A stretch of 24,065 nt of DNA, taken from IMG/VR virus record IMGVR_UViG_3300037189_023094, positions 1 through 24,065 of that record. One strand, written 5' to 3'. This document shows positions 730-7,421 of this stretch, one piece after another; position 1 is the first letter of the stretch; each line of letters opens with the position of its first letter. Source of the DNA: a virus. The notes below the pieces were generated by a model, which was not told where the DNA came from, ran no database searches, and saw nothing but the letters and a program-made list of their open reading frames with translations. Made by a program: the position numbers and the translations under genes.

Positions 730-917
730 TAGTTAAGGCTTGACCATTGTTCATAAAATTCCTCTGGAGTCACTTCAGAGATGTGTACCTCATCAGAGAT
801 GGTGAGCACGATGCAAGTGTTGACACCTGGCATCATGTTGAATAAGTCATGCACCCTTGCAACCAAGTTATCGAGGTTGTCATTCTTGGTGCCTATGTAT
901 GCGATGAAGTACTTCAT
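729..917 (-). CDS. Hypothetical protein, 62 aa
   Basis: This 62-residue protein starts MKYFIAYIGTKNDNLDNL and has an alternating beta/alpha look: a hydrophobic strand (YFIAYIG), a helix (LVARVHDLFNMM), another strand (NTCIVLTIS) and an acidic C-terminal helix ending EQWSSLN. I do not recognise the family. Its ATG overlaps the TGA of the helix-turn-helix gene upstream (ATGA), and its TAA overlaps the ATG of the MazG-like gene downstream (TAATG). That strongly supports it as a real, translationally coupled gene in the recombination operon. Confidence 0.65.
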   Translation of the reverse strand: MKYFIAYIGTKNDNLDNLVARVHDLFNMMPGVNTCIVLTISDEVHISEVTPEEFYEQWSSLN

Positions 918-1114
918 TTCATCAGAAAGTTGAATGCTTGAATGTAGAACTCATCTCCCACCCCATGACCTCTCATAAATCGGTTGACGGTGTAGTAGTT
1001 GAGATTCATATCCTCGGCCAAATGTGTCATTTTGTAGCGAATCGAGAGTCGGGACCTCAACTCTTTGTGGATGAAGTCCCGAATGTTCTCGCCATCAGAA
1101 AGGTAAATCGTCAT
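914..1114 (-). CDS. Small helix-turn-helix protein, 66 aa
   Basis: The frame is open further upstream to 1264, but that extension is only a shadow of the DUF3127 gene. I start at the ATG at 1114, giving MTIYLSDGENIRDF and 66 residues that overlap the previous gene by 20 nt. Residues 29-49, MTHLAEDMNLNYYTVNRFMRG, have the spacing of a helix-turn-helix (LAEDMNL, turn, YYTVNRFMRG). This suggests a Cro-like or adaptor DNA-binding protein. The end overlaps the next ATG as ATGA. It may be a transcription regulator of the early region or a replication accessory; nothing in the sequence decides between these. Similar Y-x-V-N-R-F wording appears in the 35-residue gene at 6452-6559. Confidence 0.65.
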   Translation of the reverse strand: MTIYLSDGENIRDFIHKELRSRLSIRYKMTHLAEDMNLNYYTVNRFMRGHGVGDEFYIQAFNFLMK

Positions 1115-1418
1115 CGATTTCATCTGTGATTGGTTTTGATGGTGCTGCTGTCGTTGCGATGCGGATATCCCAAGCATTGAGGCTGACATAATACTTGCCA
1201 TTGTACTCTCTGCCTCGAAGGTCGAACTTGACCTCACATTCTTGACCGACTTTGGCTCCATCAAGGAACTTCACTCGCTCATTGACTGCTTGAAATTGTA
1301 CCAACTGCGGATACTTGTCACCGATTGAGAGCACGAACTCTCTGATGTTCATTTTCTCACTCACTTGTCTGGCTTCACCAAGGTGGTGAATGGTGCCCTT
1401 TGCTTTTAGCTCTTCCAT
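1095..1418 (-). CDS. DUF3127-family OB-fold protein (SSB-like)
   Basis: The 107-residue protein matches the DUF3127 family well known in Bacteroidetes. It starts MEELKAKGTIHHLGEARQVS and continues with a strand-rich core (REFVLSIGDKYPQLVQFQAV, then GQECEVKFDLRGREYNGKYY and VSLNAWDIR). The EYNGKYY...AWDI segment is the family hallmark. It ends with a flexible linker and an acidic tail, DEIDDDLPF. Short acidic tails ending in a hydrophobic pair are typical of single-stranded DNA-binding proteins, where they recruit partners, so this is probably the phage's SSB-like OB-fold protein working with the exonuclease and ERF genes just upstream. That role is inferred from fold, tail and position. One base separates it from the upstream gene. 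Confidence 0.8.
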   Translation of the reverse strand: MEELKAKGTIHHLGEARQVSEKMNIREFVLSIGDKYPQLVQFQAVNERVKFLDGAKVGQECEVKFDLRGREYNGKYYVSLNAWDIRIATTAAPSKPITDEIDDDLPF

Positions 1419-2599: not shown

Positions 2600-3058
2600 T
2601 TATTTGATTGATTCGCAAAATTGCTCATAAAATTGCAAAAATCCTTCAAAATCTCGGGCAATAACATACACACCACCAGCCTCTTCAATGGCTTTCTGGT
2701 ATGCTTTCTGCGCATCTGACTGCCTATCCTTTCCATATTTGACCTCAATCTTGACCGAGCGGCCCTTGATCGTGGCGGAGATATCTGCCGAGCCTGGTGT
2801 TCCGGTTCCCTTGGTCCATTGCCCACCGATTGCCACTCCATCTGTGCGGTATTTCTTGCGATACACACCCATCGTATTGATTCGCTCAGCTTGGCATCCG
2901 CTGAACTGAAGGAATGCGATGATTGACTTGGTCAGTGCATTGGCACTGTTGTCATTCCATTGGTCCAGGGCGATGAGGTGCGGTGGGATGGTTGGATACT
3001 TTTCCATTTTGTGTTTGAGCTGGAGGTCTTTTATGATTTGTCGATGTTGTCGTGTCAT
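2600..3058 (-). CDS. VRR-NUC-like PD-(D/E)XK endonuclease
   Basis: The 152-residue protein fits the small phage VRR-NUC group. An N-terminal helix carries a candidate Glu58. A glycine-rich loop leads to GSADI (Asp92), then KIEVKYGKDRQS with Glu105 and Lys107, a Q-x-x-x-Q pair (Gln113, Gln117), and a final strand VYVIARD. Asp92/Glu105/Lys107 form the D...E-x-K catalytic triad. Members act as structure-specific nucleases or Holliday-junction resolvase-like enzymes. Its ATG overlaps the stop of the primase-helicase gene, so it is translated right after it and probably resolves replication or recombination intermediates. About 32 bp, holding a promoter, separate it from the ERF gene. The exact substrate is not shown by the sequence. 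Confidence 0.8.
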   Translation of the reverse strand: MTRQHRQIIKDLQLKHKMEKYPTIPPHLIALDQWNDNSANALTKSIIAFLQFSGCQAERINTMGVYRKKYRTDGVAIGGQWTKGTGTPGSADISATIKGRSVKIEVKYGKDRQSDAQKAYQKAIEEAGGVYVIARDFEGFLQFYEQFCESIK

Positions 3059-5454
3059 TGCTTCGCTTTTTCGTTAAGTTCATCCCAAATATCATCAGCT
3101 TCTTGAGTCGGTTTGGGAGTTCCCGAATCGAGAAGGAAGTATCTGCCGTTGTGGTTGCGCCCTTTGTTGAGATTGTATCCTTTGTAATCGGCATACGATT
3201 GCACCCATTTAAGGAATCGGCGTGGCTCGAGCTCCTTGAATGAGATAAATTCGGAGGTGAATTCTTGAATCTTAGTTCCGTTGTAGTAGTAAACATCAAG
3301 AGCAAGGTTGCCTTCTTCAGCCCAGTCAAAGAAGTCCTTGCACGTTGCCTGGATGAGTCGCTTGGCATCTGCGTTGATGCTGATGGCTTTCATCAATCCA
3401 TTTGTCAGGTATTTTTGGAGGTTCTTCACCATGTAGTTGTCGAAATTCAACCAATCTTCATCGGTCCAAGAGTCGAATAATAGCCGACCATACTCATCGA
3501 GTGGGCTGCGCTTGCTGTGGAAGTACTGATAGAACTCAAGCTCGTGCCTTCTGCGATCATGAGAAGAGCCGGCACCACTGATGACATAGTTGGTGGTGAT
3601 GACAATTTTTGGTGATCTGTTGAATGGAATAAATATCTCATCCTTATTCTTTCGGTTGACAGTGATACCCTCGGTGATGAGGCTGAAGAGCTGCTCGAAG
3701 TCGAATGCTTTTCTCACGTCATCGAATGCAAGAATCTGTGTGTCCAGGTTGACTCGCTGATAAACGAAATCTGACTTGGATGGATTGAAGCTCTTGCCAT
3801 CAATCTTCACGACTCTGCGCAGATTGCCGAGTGCTGCCAACATCAGTGACTTGCCTGACCCACCATTCGGATTGTCATCAATCTCTTGGTCATTGAAGAT
3901 GATTGCCTTCTGGTCTGTCTTGTCCTTGAAGGTGTGCATCAAGTAGCCAAGTGTTGTCTCCAGGGCATCGACTCTGCCGCTGTCATCTGCTGATACCTTG
4001 CTGACAAAATCTTGAAAGTCATTCTTGCATTCATCCAGCTTGGTGAAATCTCGCTCGATGATTTGATTCTCCCAAATATAGCCATCGACATCGATGTAGC
4101 TCTTGAGCTCCACTTTGCTCTTGGATATCTTGGCCACTCCATTCTTGAATGGGATATATGATGTATCCTTGCTATCTTGTAGCATTAAGATGTTGATGCT
4201 GTCAATCATATTGATGAAATTCTCATTGAATAAAAACGCATTGCGTGAGCAGTAGTTCCAGACATCCATCTCGCCCTTGCCTTGCAGATAGTTCAGCACA
4301 AAGTCCTTGATTTGCTCGGCTGAGGATATCTTGACCTTGTTCTCCTTGACTCTGACAAATGTAGGTTTCTCAGCGTTCTCTGGATAGTACTTATTGAAGC
4401 CATTTTTGACCAAGAATTCAGCGTAATTTGATGGCTGTATGGTGATACCACCCTTCTCATTGACTGACCAAAAGATATCATCACCGGTCTGAATCTCTTT
4501 CTTGATATCCTCAATTACATCCTCTCGCACGTTCAGCTGCTTTTTGATGTCATCATCAGTGATGCCGCTCTTGAGCTTCTGACGGACCTTCTGAAAGGTA
4601 TCTTTATCTTCGAAGTACTTGATGCCATAGGATGCTTTTTTGTAAGCAGAGCGCACTGTTGTGACCATCTCTTGCTCACTGAAGCTGGTGCCTTGAGCAT
4701 ACCTGGTGTATATGTACTGTTCTGCCGTATCCTTTGAGATGCCATACTCGCACAGCACTGCTGCCAATTTGAACACGAATTCATTGCGGCTGCCCTCAAC
4801 GAACTGACAGCCATGGTCGAATCGCTCAATGAGGCTGATGATTTTGTCCTCATCAGATAGGATGCAGATAGGAGTGCGCTCGGTGTAGCTGAAGCCTTGG
4901 TCTTGCTCTATGCCTTCGAACACTTGGCAGAACTCATTGAAGTAGATGTCAGGGTCGTATGACTCAAAACACACACGACTGACGTTGCTGTTCTTTGTAT
5001 CGAAGTATTCGCTGTCAAAATACTTACCGAATGCAGTGAATCTGCGCTTGTGCTCTACCTTGTCTGATTTCGGGATTCTGATGACAGCTTTCAGCCCATT
5101 CCCAGATGGCGAAGTGAATACCATCATCACATGAGGGTCAGCAATCAGTCGCTTGCGTTCCTCAATCATCAGATTCTTGGTTGGATATTGGTCGAAGTCA
5201 AGGATGCACAGACCAGAATGCTCAACCAAGCTGCTGTCATTGCGCTCGGTGAAGGTACCATTGAACATGATTGCGTTCAGTGAGGATTTGAGGCGGTCAT
5301 GCTCTGGGTCTGCCTTCTCAAGTGATCGTATTGTTGTCACTTTTTTGATTAGCTCGGGGTTGCCGAGTCTGATGCGGTTGTATACCTCTTGAATAGACAG
5401 TTCAAAAGGGGTCTCTTTGATGTTAAAGAGTGATTTAAAGATTGATACTTTCAT
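3055..5454 (-). CDS. Primase-helicase: BT4734/VirE-N-like primase region fused to an SF3-type helicase
   Basis: The 799-residue protein has two enzymatic ends. Residues about 40-180 resemble the BT4734-like/VirE N-terminal domain: CILDFDQY (Asp86, Asp88), SPSGNGLKAVIRI (115-127) and NVSRVCFESYDPD, the D-x-D and S-x-(G)-x-G arrangement of archaeo-eukaryotic-type primases. Residues about 200-285 form a helical PriCT/D5N-like linker. The C-terminal half is a D5/SF3-type ATPase with Walker A GGSGKS (531-536), Walker B ILAFDDV (574-580), a motif-C-like IVITTN (617-622) and an arginine cluster DRRRHE (633-638). It would prime and unwind DNA at the phage origin. Four GTGACGAT repeats and a promoter lie directly upstream, and nuclease and recombinase genes follow. 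The D-x-D primase assignment is less certain than the helicase. Confidence 0.85.
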   Translation of the reverse strand: MKVSIFKSLFNIKETPFELSIQEVYNRIRLGNPELIKKVTTIRSLEKADPEHDRLKSSLNAIMFNGTFTERNDSSLVEHSGLCILDFDQYPTKNLMIEERKRLIADPHVMMVFTSPSGNGLKAVIRIPKSDKVEHKRRFTAFGKYFDSEYFDTKNSNVSRVCFESYDPDIYFNEFCQVFEGIEQDQGFSYTERTPICILSDEDKIISLIERFDHGCQFVEGSRNEFVFKLAAVLCEYGISKDTAEQYIYTRYAQGTSFSEQEMVTTVRSAYKKASYGIKYFEDKDTFQKVRQKLKSGITDDDIKKQLNVREDVIEDIKKEIQTGDDIFWSVNEKGGITIQPSNYAEFLVKNGFNKYYPENAEKPTFVRVKENKVKISSAEQIKDFVLNYLQGKGEMDVWNYCSRNAFLFNENFINMIDSINILMLQDSKDTSYIPFKNGVAKISKSKVELKSYIDVDGYIWENQIIERDFTKLDECKNDFQDFVSKVSADDSGRVDALETTLGYLMHTFKDKTDQKAIIFNDQEIDDNPNGGSGKSLMLAALGNLRRVVKIDGKSFNPSKSDFVYQRVNLDTQILAFDDVRKAFDFEQLFSLITEGITVNRKNKDEIFIPFNRSPKIVITTNYVISGAGSSHDRRRHELEFYQYFHSKRSPLDEYGRLLFDSWTDEDWLNFDNYMVKNLQKYLTNGLMKAISINADAKRLIQATCKDFFDWAEEGNLALDVYYYNGTKIQEFTSEFISFKELEPRRFLKWVQSYADYKGYNLNKGRNHNGRYFLLDSGTPKPTQEADDIWDELNEKAKQ

Positions 5455-5474: not shown

Positions 5475-5483
5475 GTAAATATA
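5475..5483 (-). promoter_or_regulatory. Early promoter -7 box for the primase operon, TATATTTAC
   Basis: The minus strand reads TATATTTAC, 20 nt before the primase start, followed by a CAAAACAATATTTT leader almost identical in style to that before ERF. No clear TTTG -33 element is visible. Instead the first GTGACGAT repeat (5492-5499) sits immediately upstream, so a repeat-binding protein could either recruit or block RNA polymerase here. Confidence 0.55.
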
Positions 5484-5491
5484 GGCATTTT

Positions 5492-5594
5492 GTGACGATA
5501 AATGGCTGTTTTGTGACGATGCGTGACGATAAATATGCAAATCTTGAGGCTTAAAAAATTGATATTGTGCGAATTAACGTTTTTGCGTGACGAT
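5492..5594. repeat. Four direct GTGACGAT repeats (candidate origin iterons or operators)
   Basis: GTGACGAT occurs at 5492-5499, 5513-5520, 5523-5530 and 5587-5594, all in the same orientation. Two copies extend to GTGACGATAAAT. Start-to-start distances are 21, 10 and 64 bases, close to whole turns of the helix, so all four would face the same side. They fill the only non-coding gap (5455-5665, 211 bp) between a DnaA-domain-IV-like gene and the primase-helicase gene. This arrangement fits an iteron origin or an autoregulatory operator. The rest of the gap is AT-rich with nothing else recognisable. Confidence 0.65.
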
Positions 5595-5665
5595 GACGCT
5601 ATCAAAAATTTTTGGCTCTTGGTGTGTTTGATATCTCTTCAGTAATCGGTATATAAGAGAATCCG

Positions 5666-6070
5666 TCATTGCGTCACGCCATACACCCCTTTCTTGATGT
5701 CATCCTGTATCTTTCTCATCTCCCAAAATGACTCGCACTGGAGTACATCAAGCATGATATTGCGCTCAACCAAGTAGTCCATGGCTGTGTATGCCTCAAA
5801 TTTTTGGCGCAGCTCATCGGTCATGCGAAGGAATAGGCGGTCGTTCTTCCATTCTTTTGCTTTTTGCGCACCATGAACCACTGACGAATGGTCCATATTG
5901 AATAGCTTGCCTATATCGTACATCGTTAGATGGTGAGAGCGAAGGAATGAGAATAAGTAGTAACGCTGGTACACCTTGTGACGTGCACGATTGATGGCAC
6001 CATGTTTCAAGGATAGCTCTCTTGTTTCTATTTCTTCTTTTACTTGGTCAATTAGTTCTTGTATTGTCAT
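5666..6070 (-). CDS. DnaA domain IV-like DNA-binding protein, 134 aa
   Basis: I use the ATG at 6070, three bases after the upstream stop; the open frame to 6094 overlaps that gene without need. Residues 48-73 read LTMYDIGKLFNMDHSSVVHG followed by AQKAKE. This closely follows the DnaA C-terminal signature, in which an I-G-x-x-F turn is followed by D-H-(S/T)-(S/T)-V and a basic helix. A basic helix with R28, R30 and K32 precedes it. No ATPase domain is present, so this is a stand-alone box-binding domain with a helical extension (residues 80-134). It is the last gene of the early operon and lies next to the GTGACGAT repeats, suggesting it may bind them to start replication or to regulate. Binding is inferred from family and position. 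Confidence 0.7.
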   Translation of the reverse strand: MTIQELIDQVKEEIETRELSLKHGAINRARHKVYQRYYLFSFLRSHHLTMYDIGKLFNMDHSSVVHGAQKAKEWKNDRLFLRMTDELRQKFEAYTAMDYLVERNIMLDVLQCESFWEMRKIQDDIKKGVYGVTQ

Positions 6071-6072
6071 GA

Positions 6073-6312
6073 TTAAAAGTTTTTCTCCACCCATTGGCGA
6101 AATGATTGTTGTATCTCTATTTGTTGCTGAAATATATCCATGTTGCCACCAGCGAGAATGGTTGCATCTGCCTTCTGAATCTCCTGGAGCAGCATGGTTG
6201 CCTTCTGCTTGATGACTCGCTTGAATACACCTTGATCGTTGAGGTCCTCGATGAAGTCACCGAGCACTGGAAGCACGCCGCAGAGGGCGAGTAGTTTTTG
6301 TTCTCTTGTCAT
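6073..6312 (-). CDS. Hypothetical protein, 79 aa
   Basis: This 79-residue, mostly helical protein starts MTREQKLLALCGVLPVLGDF and ends RQWVEKNF. The N-terminal third is hydrophobic (LLALCGVLPVLGDFI), with too many breaks for a confident membrane helix. The rest is amphipathic with several Gln pairs. Its ATG overlaps the stop of the 48-residue gene upstream (ATGA), and it ends three bases before the DnaA-like start. The coupling supports a real gene. I do not recognise a family; an accessory of the DnaA-like protein is possible from position only. Confidence 0.6.
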   Translation of the reverse strand: MTREQKLLALCGVLPVLGDFIEDLNDQGVFKRVIKQKATMLLQEIQKADATILAGGNMDIFQQQIEIQQSFRQWVEKNF

Positions 6313-7273: not shown

Positions 7274-7421
7274 CGCAACATTTGCAAATATGTTCACTTT
7301 TTTAAACAAATTTTTTATTTTTTTTCACATTTATTTTTGGAGCGTAAGGATTTACCCTGATTTTGTGACAATTTTCGTCAGGTTTTACCCTTATTTTATG
7401 ACATGAATACCCGTTAAGGTG
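7274..7421. repeat. Non-coding AT-rich stretch with two direct TTTACCCT repeats
   Basis: The 287-bp gap 7245-7531 has no convincing gene. Inside it, TTTACCCTGATTTTGTGACA (7351-7370) and TTTACCCTTATTTTATGACA (7384-7403) agree at 18 of 20 bases with a 33-base period. They lie about 80-130 bp upstream of the early promoter box and could be operators or activator sites. CCTGA...TCAGG (7356-7382) also brackets the first copy as a short inverted repeat. Confidence 0.55.

Follow-up and report, generated by a model that had tools for sequence, protein, structure and literature searches.

A repeat array before a phage primase-helicase gene follows the replication protein rather than the neighbouring DnaA-like protein

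Introduction

The P4 alpha protein binds the repeats of its origin by means of a winged helix and subsequently unwinds and primes the DNA (PMC4234260). In the orf56/orf904 operon of pRN1 the gene of a small DNA-binding regulator is located directly before the primase-helicase gene (PMC4234260). The residues R399 and H434 of DnaA contact the DnaA box (PMC7561715), and GafA employs a DnaA-like DNA-binding domain as transcription activator outside replication initiation (PMC9638019).

The stretch of DNA analysed here over its whole length (referred to as the window) corresponds to an IMG/VR virus record of 24 kb. Similar to P4, primase, helicase and a predicted C-terminal winged helix are combined in a single protein, whose gene lies beside a repeat array that we propose as its target. 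In contrast to P4 alpha, the primase part is of the BT4734-like/PriCT_1 and not of the Toprim type, the repeat sequence is a different one, and the origin is a predicted one. The gene of a small, putatively DNA-binding protein directly precedes the primase-helicase gene as in pRN1, which however lacks iterons, has its origin downstream and encodes an ORF56 that is not DnaA-like. The small protein of the window shares a DnaA-like DNA-binding domain with GafA of gene transfer agents and with the products of the small DnaA-like genes adjacent to gafA, although GafA additionally contains a sigma-like domain at its C-terminus and belongs to an unrelated genomic setting.

Results and discussion

The DnaA-like protein

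The gene of the DnaA-like protein (134 aa) occupies positions 5666 to 6070 of the minus strand; an alternative upstream ATG at 6094 is possible and would extend the protein to 142 aa. The protein matches the Pfam family Bac_DnaA_C with 22 bits (E = 1.6e-4), which does not reach the gathering score of 31.5. The same family was matched by 24 of its 26 aligned relatives, and the protein of the relative L100 exceeded the cut-off with 44.5 bits. An AlphaFold (AF2) model based on the alignment of the 26 relatives obtained a pLDDT of 82.9. Its top fold match in the PDB according to Foldseek was 3pvp, the DNA-binding domain of M. tuberculosis DnaA with its box bound (probability 0.94, TM 0.46/0.61, E only 0.83); the 3pvp chains among the top matches had probabilities of 0.94 and 0.80 at non-significant E values of about 1. 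Searching the PDB by sequence with the protein alone gave no match, while DnaA was found weakly when the alignment was used. The stand-alone DnaA domain IV-like protein proposed by the sequence-only reading is thus borne out by the fold of the model and the better Pfam matches of the relatives.

Based on the secondary structure of the model and a profile alignment to 1j1v and 3pvp, the helix-turn-helix was assigned to residues 50-76 (IGKLFNMDHSSVVHG; positions 5843 to 5923, minus strand). In the profile alignment Arg28 corresponds to E. coli R399 and His61 to H434; among the relatives the arginine is invariant and the histidine nearly so. Since these residues match the box contacts of DnaA, the ability to bind DNA has likely been kept. 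The position equivalent to D433, in contrast, is occupied by D, K, A, H or S within the family. Further differences from DnaA domain IV are the stand-alone character of the protein and about 60 additional residues at its C-terminus without known match. As already assumed from the sequence, no ATPase domain was found in the 134 aa, which hold the helix-turn-helix only; domains I to III are missing, including the AAA+ ATPase and the helicase-recruiting domain I of a full DnaA initiator. No relatives were detected among 50,697 records of isolated phages, and matches in bacterial genomes were short and weak.

The repeat array

About 210 bp of non-coding DNA separate the DnaA-like gene from the primase-helicase gene on the minus strand. 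Exact copies of GTGACGAT were found on the plus strand at 5492 to 5499 (the promoter-proximal copy, whose position is kept in relatives), at 5513 to 5520, at 5523 to 5530 and at 5587, where an overlapping degenerate TGACG at 5594 extends the feature to 5598. The first three copies are spaced by 21 and 10 bp, corresponding to two turns and one turn, and the fourth follows 64 bp further. An inverted pair, CGTCA/CGTCAC at 5664/5672 (positions 5664 to 5677; GTGACGCAATGACG on the minus strand), which shows the same arrangement in relatives, overlaps the 3' end and the stop codon of the DnaA-like gene, with the exact GTGACG core at 5672 and the degenerate partner over the stop. When the whole window was subjected to dinucleotide shuffling, four or more copies of GTGACGAT anywhere arose once in 100 shuffles. 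The core GTGACG is present 15 times in the window, five of these exact copies being located within the 186 bp from 5492 to 5677; the largest cluster per 190 bp in 300 order-1 Markov genomes comprised three. The repeat cluster described from the sequence is therefore real, but larger than the four copies counted at first, and the distance of 72 bp given between the end of the DnaA-like gene and the last repeat holds only when the inverted pair is left out of account.

The array lies, as had been noted, just upstream of the primase-helicase gene (3055 to 5454, minus strand). A Bacteroidota-type -7 element (TATATTTA; 5476 to 5483, minus strand), read from the sequence and kept in relatives, is found just downstream of the last iteron and may belong to the promoter of the primase gene. 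Several conserved short repeat copies thus adjoin a replication gene, as is the case in iteron origins, and this makes the array the most likely origin of the phage, whereas the GC skew, in which the coding strand dominates, shows no clear inflection and marks no origin at the array.

Conservation of the repeats and of the DnaA-like protein

The comparison as a whole covered more than 100 related phages, with iterons not callable at several of the loci. All 34 scored loci of the window clade retain three to seven GTGACG per 250 bp, and the core occurs in both orientations before the primase in the relatives as well. The DnaA-like gene is located upstream of the primase in every window-clade relative with enough upstream sequence. 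Its product, however, drops to about 31% identity with that of the window and to 26% in pairwise comparisons, and its helix appears in the variants MDHSTV, LKHCTV, MAHCTV, RDHATV and RHHALV.

A third, more distant clade, which was found via the repeat itself, has also kept GTGACG, in an array of about 11 repeats over some 300 bp. Apart from the C-terminus its primase shows about 67% identity, and its winged helix retains LExRR[FY]LKW and R[ND]HxGR[YF]F. The GC-rich contigs L248 and L283 recovered by the repeat-pattern search are probably chance matches, since neither a related primase nor a DnaA-like gene was detected. The DnaA-like gene is likewise absent from L269, L281 and L301, the match in L301 being located inside a different primase gene.

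In many relatives (L033, L034, L039, L056, L072, L078, L098 and others) a NUMOD4/HNH endonuclease gene was observed between array and primase; in L034 (4639-5004) the HNH_3 match was confirmed.

The sister clade shows the opposite picture. Its 37 loci fall into seven combinations of iteron class and type of replication protein, while its DnaA-like proteins share 96-100% identity among themselves. In five cases a set of DnaA-like proteins with 115/115 identical aa is combined with two or three cassette types; in L204, L205, L206, L211, L212 and L213, for instance, identical proteins are encoded before TGTAAAC, GGTACAAA and AGTACAAA. The repeats go with the replication protein instead: TGTAAAC with a 745-aa DUF3987 protein that has an HTH-like C-terminal end, GGTACAAA or GGTACTTA with two forms of the MIVSIF primase-helicase, AGTACAAA with the MKVSFF form, AGTACACA with the MKVDYY form and CGAAATATTT with further modules. 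L164 and L176 share the MKVDYY start and differ in their repeats, the sequence of L164 ending before the C-terminus. The helix of L100 (RDHATVLH) resembles that of the sister clade (RDHASVIH), although the iterons of the two are wholly different.

Helix and repeat therefore vary separately in both clades, and the linked change that would be expected of a reduced initiator binding its own iterons, as suggested by the sequence-only reading, did not occur: identical proteins stand before different repeats, diverged proteins before the same ones, and the type of repeat tracks the replication protein. On account of this two-way dissociation the DnaA-like protein was rejected as reader of the iterons. 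A decoy that competes at the primase promoter is conceivable, but the same comparisons make it unlikely that the protein recognises GTGACGAT specifically.

Further features were observed in the sister clade and beyond. Upstream of the replication gene, L211, L176 and L165 contain a stem of the type GGTCTGAC...GTCAGACC followed by a T-run; this leader is possibly a structured regulatory RNA, and an Rfam search of the sister-clade leaders gave no match. Primases of this clade (e.g. L211, L206) end in acidic tails with DEDLPF or ETPF, resembling the C-terminal tip of SSB. The 60-kb podophage L108 (MW202828.1), the primase of which is 40% identical, carries two genes annotated as DnaA-like, neither of them directly before the primase.

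The primase-helicase and its predicted winged helix

The primase-helicase (799 aa) comprises BT4734-like_N, PriCT_1, a helicase core with the Walker A motif GGSGKS and a predicted C-terminal winged helix. Its residues 1-179 match phrog_18375 (DNA primase/helicase), and Walker A and B of the helicase core were read from the sequence, so that primase and helicase are found in one chain as in P4 alpha. Since the matches of the primase derive from Flavobacterium, Polaribacter, Maribacter and Bacteroides phages, the phage genes of the window appear to be of a type related to those of Bacteroidota phages.

The model of the C-terminal 109 residues displays the topology of a winged helix (pLDDT 83.6) with the recognition helix at residues 54-68 and the wing at 71-86. 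The predicted domain covers residues 717-776 (3127 to 3306, minus strand), the recognition helix (PRRFLKWVQSYADYK) is encoded at 3181 to 3225 and the wing (GRNHNGRYF) at 3127 to 3174, both on the minus strand. Foldseek retrieved weak generic winged-helix matches, none with E<=0.001, and the P4 alpha domain was absent among the 50 fold matches listed. Forty-seven C-termini of the GTGACG class, from the window clade and the third clade, were compared with 11 others. Residues that are invariant in the former and missing from the latter include E53, L58 and K59, located at the recognition helix, as well as R76, H78 and G80 of the wing, which identifies the domain as a candidate for reading the iterons; further class-specific residues, e.g. 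N35 and Q40, lie outside helix and wing.

An additional indication comes from the L370-type primases of a wider sample, which are associated with AGTACAC iterons. Over residues 1-500 they resemble L206 (58%) more than L176 (40%), whereas in the reading residues they share 82% identity with L176, likewise an AGTACAC primase (AGTACACA), and 59% with L206 (GGTACAAA). No DnaA-like gene was detected within 1.5 kb upstream at these loci. Across representatives the similarity of the iterons correlated about equally with that of the N part (0.65), the helicase (0.72) and the winged helix (0.68) of the primase, and the role of the winged helix as reader therefore rests on its structure, the class-specific residues and this one crossover case. 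Narrowing the reader down from the whole replication protein to the winged helix accordingly has moderate rather than strong support.

Proposed function of the locus

Taken together, we consider it likely that the array is the origin of the phage, read by its own primase-helicase through the winged helix, and that the DnaA-like protein is not the partner providing specificity. The GTGACG repeats at 5492-5677 would act as iterons, which the primase-helicase encoded directly downstream would recognise through its C-terminal winged helix by analogy with P4 alpha. Once bound, it presumably opens the A+T-rich spacer, unwinds the DNA, primes and starts replication. Binding to the iterons probably also autoregulates the primase gene, as suggested by the location of the last iteron just upstream of the TATATTTA element. 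Origin and replication gene would move together as an exchangeable cassette, with the DnaA-like protein being a neighbour that most likely serves as a DNA-binding regulator of other sites. As it is conserved whichever origin follows, its function probably does not depend on the sequence of the origin.

Two copies of an imperfect palindrome (TMAGGGTAAAACCTKA; 7347-7391 of the window), exactly 33 bp apart and located upstream of the early promoter, represent candidate regulator targets. A function of the DnaA-like protein as phage transcription regulator similar to GafA, which would be compatible with the proposed origin, may tentatively be considered. A precedent exists in GafA and in the small DnaA-like genes that stand alone beside gafA (PMC9638019), and the early repeats occur twice in nearly all MDHSTV-type loci that contain the region, but are eroded to 0-2 in the LKHCTV-type. 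The same pattern could, however, result from linkage and clade structure, the early repeats are imperfect palindromes unlike DnaA boxes, and another HTH-like protein of the window (914-1129) could be the binder.

Alternatively, the protein might target DnaA boxes of the host, at oriC or at DnaA-regulated promoters, and thereby block or modulate host replication, given that the residues reading the box are kept, most closely in relatives such as L100 (KRDHATVLH; 44.5 bits), and that the ATPase and helicase-recruiting domains are missing. In agreement with this, no exact TTATCCACA was found in the window or in 29 relatives scanned, and the protein is conserved independently of the origin type of the phage itself. 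Allowing up to one mismatch, the window contains 4 DnaA boxes compared with 6.4 expected; matches to TTWTNCACA are sparse, several of them near the early promoter adjoining an A/T tract. Due to the variable D433 equivalent (D, K, A, H, S), one fixed host target for all members is doubtful, and on balance we regard a role at host boxes as rather improbable. The wider assumption that orphan DnaA DNA-binding domains form a widespread family in Bacteroidota-type phages, where they would occupy host DnaA boxes and remain constant while the ori-rep cassette is swapped freely, seems doubtful too.

With regard to the array, it appears unlikely that the repeats are merely operators of the primase promoter without origin function. 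The last iteron is indeed located directly before the -7 element, but the array contains many copies distributed over both strands within ~190 bp, the third clade has about 11 within some 300 bp, the repeats are exchanged together with the replication gene, and an A+T-rich spacer separates the pairs, all of which is typical of origins with iterons. A role of the DnaA-like protein as reduced initiator, which would bind the GTGACGAT iterons and bring in the primase-helicase, is very unlikely: its gene adjoins the array in every window-clade locus with enough upstream sequence and the DnaA-type contact residues (R399 and H434 equivalents) are largely kept, but identical proteins occur with different iterons and diverged ones with the same, iterons are present in the primase family without a nearby DnaA-like gene, and the protein has no domain I or III for recruiting a helicase, which the phage encodes itself.

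Conclusions

An origin read by the primase-helicase therefore remains our preferred explanation of the array. The locus corrects an easy misreading, as the location of a DnaA-like gene next to repeats does not show that it encodes the initiator. In these closely related phages initiators and origins occur in natural pairs, about seven iteron types being assigned to replication proteins of which the majority carry one predicted winged helix, and the recognition code of phage primase-helicases should therefore be directly testable.
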